Source: Gammaproteobacteria bacterium
Lineage (GTDB): Bacteria; Pseudomonadota; Gammaproteobacteria; Enterobacterales; Alteromonadaceae
Length of the DNA stretch: 47,412 nt
Assembly: GCA_018815765.1 (NCBI GenBank)
Contig: JAHIWM010000181.1
Coordinates: 1 to 47,412 of the forward strand
Direction of reading: 5' to 3'
Below are positions 4,238 to 45,768 of this stretch, piece after piece. Each line of letters starts with the position of its first letter. The first letter of the stretch is position 1. The position numbers and the translations under genes were made by a program. The notes under the pieces are model-generated. The model was not told the origin of the DNA, did no database searches, and saw nothing but the letters and a program-made list of their open reading frames with translations.

Positions 4238-6484
<2,247 letters not shown>

Positions 6485-15409: not shown

Positions 15410-15619
15410 TCAGTACACCCAACGTTCTGGCAGTATTAAAGCAGCTGCGATATAAGCTACCACTACAGCAACCGGAAAACAGAACGCCAGCAATACCACA
15501 ACTGCGCGGACTAACCAGATTGGCTGGTCATAAAAAGCCGCAAAACCTGCACACACACCTGAAATTTTACGTTTAGCCTTGTTTACAAACCAGGCGCTTT
15601 TGTCTCTGCCTATACTCAT
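15410..15619 (-). CDS. PspC-domain small membrane protein
   Basis: 69 residues from the ATG at 15619, chosen because GGGGAG lies seven bases upstream; a slightly longer frame lacks a ribosome site. The PspC domain is clear: KAKRKISGVCAGFAAFYDQP, IWLVRAVVVLLAFCFPVAVV, VAYIAAALILPE. In E. coli PspC is an inner-membrane sensor and effector of the phage-shock (envelope stress) response. Here it is short, with no leucine-zipper tail and no adjacent pspA or pspB. It is the last gene of a run of tiny genes on this strand (31 aa five bases upstream, then two 24 aa copies) behind a sigma-54-type promoter at 16033-16050. Confidence 0.85.
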   Translation of the reverse strand: MSIGRDKSAWFVNKAKRKISGVCAGFAAFYDQPIWLVRAVVVLLAFCFPVAVVVAYIAAALILPERWVY

Positions 15620-15623
15620 GTTA

Positions 15624-15719
15624 TTACTCCCCAACTTTATTAATTACAGCTTTATCCAGCATCCACATCAAACCAGCTAAAGCCCAGACCACGACAATGT
15701 TGATAATAATTAGCGACAT
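15624..15719 (-). CDS. 31-residue single-helix membrane peptide
   Basis: An ATG with a very strong ribosome site (GGAGGAGCAGGAC before it) opens a 31-codon frame: MSLIIINIVVVWALAGLMWM then LDKAVINKVGE. This is one membrane helix with a charged C-terminal tail. The stop lies five bases before the start of the PspC-domain gene, whose ribosome site overlaps the last codons, so the two are surely co-translated. I do not recognise a family; it is too short and different to be called PspB or PspD. Evidence rests on ribosome site, hydrophobicity and position. Confidence 0.7.
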   Translation of the reverse strand: MSLIIINIVVVWALAGLMWMLDKAVINKVGE

Positions 15720-15751
15720 GTCCTGCTCCTCCCTAAACCGGCTAAACCCAT

Positions 15752-15826
15752 TCAGACTTCGTCTGCAGCCCAGCTGCCTACAATGCCAAACCATGCTAAA
15801 ACAACCATCAGTGCTGCTATTTCCAT
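15752..15826 (-). CDS. 24-residue membrane peptide, copy 2
   Basis: An AGGAGAG seven bases before the ATG opens a 24-codon frame encoding MEIAALMVVLAWFGIVG followed by SWAADEV. The first part is a membrane helix; the end is acidic. The protein is identical to that of copy 1 (15892-15966), while the DNA differs at three third-codon positions (two Val codons, one Ala codon), which is what selection on the peptide would leave. I know of no named family. Lies between copy 1 and the 31-residue gene, all on one strand. Confidence 0.75.
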   Translation of the reverse strand: MEIAALMVVLAWFGIVGSWAADEV

Positions 15827-15891
15827 TTTGACTCTCCTAACCTTTGTTTATGTTTTTGTGATTTTGCTGATACTCATCAGCATTTTGTTTT

Positions 15892-15966
15892 TCAGACTTC
15901 GTCTGCAGCCCAGCTGCCAACAATGCCAAACCAAGCTAATACAACCATCAGTGCTGCTATTTCCAT
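15892..15966 (-). CDS. 24-residue membrane peptide, copy 1
   Basis: The promoter-proximal copy of the duplicated peptide gene: same ribosome site (AGGAGAG), same 24 residues, ending SWAADEV. Transcription should begin about 55 bases upstream at the sigma-54-type promoter 16033-16050. Two tandem copies followed by a further one-helix peptide and a PspC-domain protein suggest small membrane effectors or sensors made in quantity under envelope stress; that role is inference from context. Confidence 0.75.
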   Translation of the reverse strand: MEIAALMVVLAWFGIVGSWAADEV

Positions 15967-16320
15967 TTTGACTCTCCTCAATCTTAGTTAGTGGTTTAAT
16001 TCATCATCAGTTCATCTGTTGATATCTATACATTGCAGCTGTTATGCCAACTTGAAAATAAATTCTAAGCAATTGTTTTTAATGGCAATTTAAAGAACAA
16101 GAACAACAAGACCCTACAGCTCAAATTTTATTCAAAACACATAGGTGGCATTTTTAACCACTTTTTAGTTGATTTAAAAAAGCGATTATGACTACATTCA
16201 GGCGTGCAAATGCAGCAGGATGGCATTAAAGAAGAGTTTGAAAATTGATAGATATAAAGGGATCGACAGGTGCAAACAGGAAAGAGGGAGAGGACTTAAA
16301 AAAACAAAACCCGGTACTAC
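15967..16320. other. Intergenic region with the promoter of the small-peptide/pspC operon
   Basis: No open frame with a credible ribosome site. It holds the 5' leader of the 24-aa gene, a sigma-54-type promoter (16033-16050), an AT-rich upstream element (16063-16075), a dyad AATTG-N10-CAATT (16071-16090), and, at the far end, the terminator of the preceding operon. The rest (16100-16300) is AT-rich; I see nothing definite in it, though enhancer-binding sites would be expected here. Confidence 0.6.
16033..16075 (-). promoter_or_regulatory. Sigma-54-type promoter (P1) with shared upstream element
   Basis: On the minus strand TTGGCATAACAGCTGCAA (16033-16050) has GG and GC exactly ten bases apart, the invariant -24/-12 spacing of sigma-54 promoters (consensus TGGCAC-N5-TTGC). 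Fourteen bases upstream of the GG is CAATTGCTTAGAA (16063-16075), which recurs at the same distance before P2. The predicted start is near 16023. Confidence 0.6.
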
Positions 16321-16333
16321 TTAAAACCGGGTT
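16308..16333 (-). terminator. Intrinsic terminator of the 88-aa/41-aa operon
   Basis: On the minus strand an 8 bp stem AACCCGGT / ACCGGGTT with a 10-base loop is followed by TTGTTTTTTT. The 41-codon frame ends inside the loop region, so stop codon and terminator overlap. Confidence 0.8.
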
Positions 16334-16446
16334 GAGCCAGGAATATCGAAAGGGGGTAATAACCAATGCCAGATCACAGACACCAGGCCAACACTAACTA
16401 CGGGCAATAAAAACAGACCCAACAACCCTAATGTTAAGCTCAGCAT
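16321..16446 (-). CDS. 41-residue single-helix membrane peptide
   Basis: The ATG at 16446 is two bases after the stop of the 88-residue gene, which implies translational coupling. The peptide begins MLSLTLGLLGLFLLPVVSVG, continues as a hydrophobic stretch LVSVIWHWLL, and ends in a short polar tail. It occupies the place, downstream of dusA, where E. coli has pspG (80 residues, two hydrophobic segments). It is half that length and I cannot show homology. The last codons run into the terminator stem. Confidence 0.5.
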   Translation of the reverse strand: MLSLTLGLLGLFLLPVVSVGLVSVIWHWLLPPFDIPGSTRF

Positions 16447-16448
16447 CC

Positions 16449-16715
16449 TTAATCCACCTTAGCTACTGCAATCACTGGTTCTTTTTCAGTTTCAGCAGAT
16501 TTCACTAAAGTGATTTCAAGCTCAGCTATAGCTTTTTGGCTTTGCTCCAGAATGGCCATCTTTAATTCAGCCATTTGCTGGCTCATCAGTTCAGCAGCAA
16601 AAGCGCTAACAGCTTGGGTATTCACTGAAGGTAAGCTCAGTTCATTGGCTTGTACTGCAGGGGTAGCAGCAAAAACTGCTGTGGTAACAAGAACTAACGT
16701 AGCAAGTGTTTTCAT
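16449..16715 (-). CDS. Small secreted protein of unknown function (88 aa)
   Basis: A typical signal peptide (MKTLATLVLVTTAVFAATPA, cut near VQA-NE) is followed by about 64 residues that are mostly helical and charged: LMSQQMAELKMAILEQSQKA and a Glu/Lys-rich end. The ribosome site AAGGAGCACGACC before the ATG is strong. I do not recognise a family. It is the first gene of a two-gene operon with a 41-residue membrane peptide. A near-consensus sigma-54 promoter lies 43-56 bases upstream, and dusA lies just beyond a terminator. Confidence 0.75.
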   Translation of the reverse strand: MKTLATLVLVTTAVFAATPAVQANELSLPSVNTQAVSAFAAELMSQQMAELKMAILEQSQKAIAELEITLVKSAETEKEPVIAVAKVD

Positions 16716-16757
16716 GGTCGTGCTCCTTAATGAGTAGTGAAGTTCACTATCTCTACT

Positions 16758-16798
16758 TCAAGGTGCGTGCCATACTGAAATTAATTTTTAAGCTATTG
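16758..16798 (-). promoter_or_regulatory. Sigma-54-type promoter (P2) with shared upstream element
   Basis: Minus strand ATGGCACGCACCTTGAAG has the full TGGCACG -24 box and TTG of the -12 box, with GA in place of the usual GC, and the correct ten-base spacing. Fourteen bases upstream of the GG is CAATAGCTTAAAA (16786-16798), matching the P1 element. AT-rich DNA to 16820 forms an imperfect dyad (AATTAATTTTTAAG against CTTAAAATGAATT). Predicted start near 16746. Confidence 0.6.
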
Positions 16799-16861
16799 AT
16801 AATTATTAACTTAAAATGAATTCAACCGATTTACCAATAAAACACCAAAAGGCTAAAAACA

Positions 16862-16888
16862 AAAAAGTGGTGAAATTCACCACTTTTT
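16862..16888. terminator. Intrinsic terminator after dusA
   Basis: A perfect 13 bp inverted repeat AAAAAGTGGTGAA / TTCACCACTTTTT around one base, with T runs on both strands; 21 bases past the dusA stop. Confidence 0.85.
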
Positions 16889-36951: not shown

Positions 36952-37872
36952 CTAGCTTAGCGAAGTTAAAATGGCTTGCAAGTTTTCTGCCTGTTTGTCT
37001 TCAGTTTTTAACCAATTTAATTCAGGCCAACTGCGTAACCAGGTGAGTTGCCGTTTCGCCAATTGACGAGTTGCAGCAATTCCCTGGTCGATCATCTCCT
37101 GCTCAGACAGCTGTCCTTGCAGGTGTAACCACATCTGACGATAGCCGACACAACGCATCGAAGGTAAATCCAAATGCAGATCAGATCGTTGCATCAGAGT
37201 TCTTACTTCATCAGCGAAACCACAATCTAACATTTGCCGGAATCTGACAGCTATACGCTGATGAAGTTCAGACCGATCTGTTGGATTGATAGCAAATTGT
37301 TGCACCGGGTATGGAAAAGGCTCGCCTTTATGTTCTGTCAGTTCAGTCAGACTCTTGCCCGTTAGTCGATACACTTCCACCGCCCTGTTAACACGCTGTG
37401 GGTCGTTCGGATGAATCCGAGCCGCCGATACCGGATCAAACTCTGCCAGTTGCTGATGCAAATAACCCCAGCCATGTTCTGCCGCTTCAGCTTCAATCTG
37501 CTGTCGTATCTCCGGATCTGCTTCAGGCAAAGGCGATATGCCCTGCAACAAAGTACGGAAATACAACATAGTGCCGCCAACCAGAATAGCGGTTTTCCCC
37601 CTGCGGTGGATATCAGCAATAAGTCGTAACGCATCAGTACGAAAATCTGCGGCTGAATACGCTGAAGCCGGGTCAAGAATATCAATTAAATGATGAGGTG
37701 CATCCAGAAGCTCTGCCGCCGTAGGTTTGGCTGTGCCTATATCCATACCTTTATAAATTAAAGCACTATCGACACTAATCAGCTCTGACGGGATGCTTTT
37801 ATACAGATCAATAGCCAAGGACGTTTTACCGCTGGCTGTAGGCCCCATTAAAAAAATAACTTTAGGATCCAT
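36952..37872 (-). CDS. miaA: tRNA dimethylallyltransferase
   Basis: 306 residues. Adds the isopentenyl group to A37 of tRNAs reading codons that begin with U. P-loop [17 protein letters not shown], then [37 protein letters not shown] and the C-terminal [14 protein letters not shown]. The start lies within the last codons of mutL (11-base overlap), showing close coupling in the mutL-miaA-hfq run. Confidence 0.98.
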
Positions 37873-44724: not shown

Positions 44725-45768
44725 GTGACCAAAAAAAAGCACCTCAATCAACGCCAGCATCAACGTATAGCCGCCAATCAGGATCGTCGTTTAGCCCGGG
44801 CTCAGAATAAAACCAACAAAAAAGAGCTGGATTCTGACTTATTGGCTGAAGCCGAACATGGCTTAGTGATCAGTCGTTTTGGTCAACACGCCGATATTGA
44901 AGATAGCTCAGGCCAAATTTTCCGTTGCAATATCCGCCGTACCATCAACTCCCTAGTCACAGGGGACAAAGTCGTATTCTGCCGCACCAAAGTACCTGGC
45001 GGTGGCCCTGAAGGTGTTGTAGAAGCTGTAGCTGAACGTGAATCTGTATTACTGCGCCCTGACTTTTATGACGGCCTAAAACCTGTAGCAGCCAATATAG
45101 ATTTAATGATTATTGTCTCCGCCGTTTTACCTGCGTTTTCGCTGAACATTGTCGACCGCTATTTAATAGCGGCCGAAGCTATGCATATCAAGCCGTTGTT
45201 ATTGTTGAATAAAATCGATTTATTAACCGAAGAACAGCGCGCTGAAGTTGATCAGCAACTGGCTATTTATCAGAACATTGGGTACGAATTCTTATTACTG
45301 AGCGCCAAAACCGGTGAAGGTACAGCTCAGCTGGATTCTTACCTGAAACAAGGCGTCAGTATTTTTGTCGGCCAGTCTGGTGTAGGTAAATCATCTTTAG
45401 TAAATAACCTGCTGCCTGATTTGGGTGTAGAAACCCGCGCCGTGTCAGAAAACTCAGGTTTAGGCCAACATACAACAACCACTGCCCGCTTGTATCATTT
45501 ACCAGATGGCGGTGATTTAATTGATTCACCCGGTATCCGTGAATTTGCCTTGTGGCATTTGGAGCCAGAGCAAATCGTGTTAGGTTTTCCTGAGTTTAAA
45601 GACTGGCTCGGCCGCTGCAAATTCCGTGACTGTAAACACTTAAACGACCCGGGCTGCGCACTGCAACATGCGGTCAGCATTGGTGAAATTCACCCGGAAC
45701 GTTTTGCCAGTTATCATAAAATCCTGCTGAGTATGGCGCAGGACAAACCGAATTATTTTCAACCCTGA
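44725..45768 (+). CDS. rsgA: Ribosome small-subunit biogenesis GTPase RsgA
   Basis: 347 residues from a GTG start ([20 protein letters not shown]). Late maturation factor of the 30S subunit. An N-terminal OB fold is followed by a circularly permuted GTPase with motif order G4 (LLNKIDLL), G1 ([17 protein letters not shown]) and G3 (DSPGIREF), and a zinc-binding end [20 protein letters not shown]. It lies divergent from orn and 15 bases before psd, so rsgA-psd form an operon. Confidence 0.97.

Follow-up and report, generated by a model that had tools for sequence, protein, structure and literature searches.

Very small membrane and exported proteins encoded after dusA in an Alteromonadaceae genome: a probable accessory arm of the Psp regulon under predicted PspF/sigma-54 control

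A compact block of six very small genes lies directly after dusA in the window, the whole 47,412-nucleotide stretch of DNA analysed here, from a Rheinheimera-type bacterium, and raises two questions: whether genes this small are real and, if so, to which regulon they belong. The original prediction described a phage-shock-like module under sigma-54-type control. The sequence evidence presented below points to an accessory arm of the Psp regulon, organised as two PspF/sigma-54 transcription units; we give this reading a probability of about 0.78. The arm is probably an extra one and partly lineage-specific.

The ORF list contains the six predicted minus-strand frames between positions 15410 and 16715, encoding 88, 41, 24, 24, 31 and 69 amino acids; the 69-aa, the 31-aa and one of the 24-aa genes are internal ATG starts within longer listed frames. 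Read along the minus strand, the order is promoter P1, the 88-aa gene, the 41-aa gene, a terminator, promoter P2, the two 24-aa genes, the 31-aa gene and the 69-aa PspC gene, beyond which prmA is convergent with the block. The placement of dusA directly upstream was correctly predicted, and dusA was found in all 22 genomes of the genus. As also predicted, no PspA or PspB was found beside the block.

The last gene (15410..15619, minus strand) encodes a mini-PspC (PspC2) that matches the Pfam PspC family PF04024 at 53.1 bits, against a cut-off of 25, and the canonical PspC model TIGR02978 at 49.1 bits, below the curated cut-off of 104. When 40 mini-PspC domains and 30 PspC domains from the operon were placed in one tree (67 columns, with long branches within it), the two groups came apart (100/100). 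The first gene (16449..16715, minus) encodes the 88-aa protein, which by eye has a signal peptide followed by one long helix; the structural model is weak (mean pLDDT 62.6, pTM 0.34) and places a helix at residues 28–77, with block pLDDT values of up to 86. The 41-aa, 24-aa and 31-aa products (16321..16446; 15892..15966 and 15752..15826; 15624..15719, all minus) are peptides with one stretch each able to span the membrane, with maximum mean hydropathy of 2.1–2.5. The two 24-aa copies encode identical proteins, the first with the Shine-Dalgarno sequence GAGGAGAG. All 13 aligned sequences of the 41-aa type share one proline (P15); the start of some was chosen by hand, and the relatives from other genera are hand-picked small hydrophobic frames adjoining the exported gene. 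Searches of the 88-, 41-, 31- and 24-aa proteins against Pfam and NCBIfam gave nothing, or weak matches below the cut-off that were taken as chance.

The small genes are almost certainly coding, as judged from their substitution patterns. Among 31 copies of the 24-aa gene, pS is 0.261 and pN 0.028 (pooled pN/pS 0.107), and 1982 of the 2646 pairwise differences fall at third positions. Across the 12 genomes of the window’s clade, the pooled pN/pS is 0.166 for the 31-aa gene (12 sequences), 0.069 for the 41-aa gene and 0.266 for the 88-aa gene. Conservation alone would not show coding, because the final 60 nt of the P2 leader have diverged no more than the genes (0.061); pN/pS does. The mean difference between first 24-aa copies only is 0.055 (66 pairs). 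Concerted evolution of the copies was also considered, and differences of 0.071 within genomes (27 pairs) versus 0.080 between them (438 pairs) give no strong sign of it. The tiny frames are present in close relatives, the comparison proposed with the original prediction, and are under purifying selection there.

The 24-aa gene occurs in 12 of the 22 genus genomes, in two to four tandem copies; weak matches in G004 and G035 (a pair with E 0.4/0.9) were left uncounted. At an E-value of 0.001 it was not found in 393 further genomes sampled from the order, which include at least two genus members without the gene (G003 and G019). Among 20 genus intervals the 31-aa gene is found only in the 12 carriers of the 24-aa gene, and among 30 family loci in two alone, L031 and L032, both carriers. 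In G016, which has four copies of the 24-aa gene, an in-frame stop interrupts one of them (L093, 1389–1460), and its neighbours are intact. The suggestion that the block is lineage-specific holds for the 24-aa and 31-aa genes, found in 12 genus genomes, and fails for the 88-aa, 41-aa and mini-PspC genes, which have counterparts in other genera.

Ibs and Ldr are type I toxins, and a tiny hydrophobic peptide in two to four tandem copies resembles an array of this kind, with peptides repressed by antisense RNA; a plus-strand terminator-like hairpin between the 24-aa copies (15865–15882) would suit such an RNA. This hairpin, however, is lost in G008 and G007, and no sigma-70-like site was found within the repeats on either strand. 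The strong Shine-Dalgarno sequence, the apparent single operon with mini-PspC and the presence of P2 before the array in each of the 12 carriers also argue against a toxin array, which we consider unlikely.

Two sites with GG-N10-GA/GC spacing had been proposed as promoters, and both are present. P1 (TGGCACGCACCTTGAA, 16757..16772, minus) and P2 (TGGCATAACAGCTGCA, 16034..16049, minus) are the sole 11/12 matches on either strand of the window to TGGCAYRN4TTGCW, which we take to be the sigma-54 consensus, in a scan with the GG and the G of the -12 element held fixed. The predicted starts, 24 nt downstream of the second G, are 16746 and 16023, the positions originally put forward. With the stricter TGGCACGN4TTGCW and a cut-off of 10/12, P1 again scores 11 and one other site, at 45604, is picked up; P2 falls below this cut-off, with 9/12 by hand. 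Both promoters are kept in all 20 readable genus intervals (from 22 genomes; G011 and G018 were left out owing to contig ends). A sigma-54 site of 11/12 is also present in 19 of 20 further family loci, hand-chosen from 117 genomes with a PspC match and mostly for strong mini-PspC matches, the exception being G042. P1 and P2 are very probably sigma-54 promoters. At the genome’s own pspF-pspABC locus (L092, 4001–5545) the consensus scan gave no sigma-54 match of at least 10/12, and the match there is 9/12 by hand, weaker than P1 and P2.

The identity of the activator was addressed with a 22-nt enhancer motif, GGTtTAaTTgACTAAtAAaTAG, learned by a motif finder from 30 pspF-pspA intergenic regions (30 family loci obtained from 58 genomes with pspF), with the present block left out. 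The best of 94,782 window positions is at 16881 on the minus strand, upstream of P1 (predicted PspF-type enhancer, 16860..16881; 12.4 bits, p 0.0033 versus shuffles); the predicted P2 enhancer (16158..16179, minus) scores 10.1 bits (p 0.017). These scores are lower than those of the pspA regions (17.5–28.9 bits), and the next matches in the window, 11.7 bits at 37605 and 11.6 at 6024, are both unrelated. In two 8-kb stretches of E. coli used as a check, the top matches lie directly above pspG (19.4 bits) and pspA (18.4 bits); a site inside zur, second-best in the first stretch at 14.6 bits, is probably a false hit. Because of the zur site and the unrelated window positions, the enhancer score alone is not specific. 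When the 200 nt above each of 40 genus promoters was scored, the best match fell at -105 to -130 in all 40 and had p < 0.05 against its own dinucleotide shuffles in 39, although these promoters are related to each other and not independent, and just 25 of the 40 score above the window’s 99% block level. For 28 of 31 sigma-54 sites in the 20 further family loci, the best forward match lies at -108 to -132, with scores over the 31 sites ranging from 2.5 to 20.8.

An IHF-like site lies between enhancer and promoter in both units, TATCAATAGCTTA at 16789..16801 (9/9 against WATCAANNNNTTR, presumably the IHF consensus) for P1 and AAACAATTGCTTA at 16066..16078 (8/9) for P2, both on the minus strand. 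Such sites (at least 8/9, within 100 nt above the promoter) accompany 33 of 40 genus promoters versus 48 of 474 window blocks, an enrichment that is partly compositional because AT-rich spacers favour IHF matches.

The promoters could be driven by an activator other than PspF, with the PspC domain a coincidence. The genome has 13 matches to the PspF model, of which one is over the cut-off and 12 are below it, one of these a short fragment, and the window’s enhancer scores are moderate and not unique, as such an arrangement would allow. The motif, however, derives from pspA regions and finds both pspA and pspG of E. coli, it is spaced alike at all 40 promoters, and a mini-PspC, with a PspA gene in 16 of 20 family loci, sits at the same locus, so that another activator appears improbable. 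PspF is the likely activator of both P1 and P2. Binding of PspF to the enhancers of pspA and pspG has been reported (PMC3709507), as has binding of RpoN between dusA and pspG (PMC8743547). The genome encodes one PspA, with PspB and PspC frames, read by eye, after pspA. Overall, PspF/sigma-54 control of the block, as first predicted, is well supported by an enhancer motif of PspF type at the right distance, the IHF-like site and a pspG-like seat after dusA.

Relatives indicate where the block may have come from. A PspC match was found in 117 of 118 family genomes, 101 of which have two. At the 20 hand-chosen family loci, dusA is present in 17, a second pspA directly before mini-pspC in 16, a gene for a membrane protein of roughly 113 aa in 15, and genes for PCu(A)C (PF04314) and DUF2333 (PF10095) proteins in 19 each. 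The layout is not uniform: in G100, G133 and G055 the second pspA comes directly after dusA and one promoter, with no room for the exported gene, and the loci of G132, G099, G117 and G042 lack a second pspA. In one locus (L120 in G051, 1659–2857) the exported/peptide pair is tandemly duplicated ahead of pspA2, each pair with its own sigma-54 site. The exported proteins of different genera are likely homologous, as suggested by their size, position and signal peptide together with weak E-values, mostly between 1e-2 and 1e-7 without composition correction. DUF2333 lies within about 2 kb of dusA in eight of the 22 genus genomes (G003, G004, G006, G009, G013, G017, G019 and G020) and away from the block in the window’s clade (own gene at G000:C149:571-1527); the two genes are 75–94 kb apart in five genomes in which they share a contig (G005, G014, G015, G016 and G021). 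A second pspA was found neither at the present locus nor at that of the five genus genomes checked. Among 59 genomes, 51 have two to four PspA and eight have one, the latter including G000 and G003, the sole members of the genus among the 59. In our reading, the old locus may have consisted of dusA, PspF promoters, the exported protein and its peptide, pspA2 and pspC2. The window’s lineage would then have lost pspA2 and gained the 24-aa and 31-aa genes.

An alternative is that the upstream inverted repeats are mere terminators and the remainder an unregulated remnant of a decaying psp operon. The P1 enhancer lies inside a hairpin (z -4.95), an inverted repeat at 16860–16888 followed by T’s, and so may double as dusA terminator and PspF site. 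Its folding as a terminator, the missing second pspA in the five genomes checked and the stop in one of the four G016 copies are all compatible with decay. In G004, G009 and G013, however, the element is by eye not palindromic and yet has a higher enhancer score (20.6–24.3 bits), the genes are under purifying selection, and the promoters are retained in 20 of 20 intervals, which makes decay very improbable.

Two PspF/sigma-54 units remain the preferred reading, and the following sequence of events is proposed. Damage to the inner membrane would free PspF from PspA; freed PspF would bind both enhancers, IHF would bend the DNA and sigma-54 polymerase would fire. The first unit, from P1, which stands where E. 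coli has the pspG promoter, would yield the 88-aa exported helical protein and the 41-aa membrane peptide and end in the predicted intrinsic terminator at 16298..16333 (minus; -13.8 kcal/mol, z -2.94, then a T run), which overlaps the end of the 41-aa gene and would part the two units. The second, from P2, would yield the two 24-aa peptides, the 31-aa peptide and mini-PspC. The single-span peptides and the second PspC would then enter the inner membrane, and the one helical protein the periplasm. Sequence comparison supports the promoters, enhancers, IHF-like sites, coding status and the tie to the relatives’ second psp operon; induction of the block by membrane stress, and a role of the peptides as adaptors working with PspC/PspA or as modifiers of the bilayer, are inferences. 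The peptides are probably membrane adaptors or modulators of PspA/PspC; either mode, adaptor or bilayer action, is a guess prompted by their position and by YohP. More tentatively, and less likely than not, the family’s Psp response may run partly through dedicated micropeptides: an old pair of exported helix and proline-bearing single-span peptide that would have taken the pspG seat, and a young 24-aa array that, with PspC2, would take over from the lost second PspA the role of an effector that seals the membrane or anchors PspA.

PspC paralogues and slimmed Psp networks have been described (PMC9239133, PMC11237479). The terms ‘Alteromonad’ and ‘DUF2333’ are absent from the main texts of both papers and ‘Rheinheimera’ from that of PMC9239133; PMC5343134 makes no mention of PspF, phage shock or pspA. 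Among the papers listed by searches of the open literature, which does not extend to subscription papers or regulon databases, no title or opening part of an abstract describes the block. The findings suggest that, outside the enterobacteria, PspF control reaches beyond pspA and pspG. They likewise suggest that the dusA-pspG seat is long established as a control point, with contents that vary by lineage, and that peptides of 24–41 aa may serve as Psp effectors. Many relatives have pspA2 and some members of one genus have a peptide array, which offers a natural experiment on the action of PspA and PspC partners, and the predicted starts and enhancers make this reading directly testable.

The closest known counterpart is pspG of E. 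coli, which lies beside dusA as originally stated (annotated order in K-12: zur, yjbL, yjbM, dusA, pspG, pspH, qorA, dnaB, alr). Window frames near the block are presumably zur, alr and dnaB. P1 likewise follows dusA, and its control elements have the E. coli order of enhancer, then IHF-like site, then sigma-54 site (IHF and sigma-54 sites of E. coli by eye). Unlike the E. coli locus, the block has an exported helical protein, a 41-aa peptide and a second promoter, and no PspG: the PspG model TIGR02975, which detected E. coli among its controls, gave no match in the window’s genome and none over the cut-off in 59 family genomes, with two weak matches. PspG was also considered as the identity of the 41-aa and 113-aa proteins and ruled out, neither giving a match. 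With the canonical pspF-pspABC locus the block shares a PspC domain and the enhancer motif; that locus, however, is on a separate contig and has its own PspC-like frame of 146 aa, its PspC lies apart from PspC2 in the tree, and the block is without PspA or PspB. E. coli YohP, a stress-induced membrane peptide, is very small and single-span like the peptides of the block; it decreases membrane potential and increases PspA and PspC (PMC12719787), whereas the genes of the block are probably targets of the Psp response, and the 24-aa gene stands in tandem copies.
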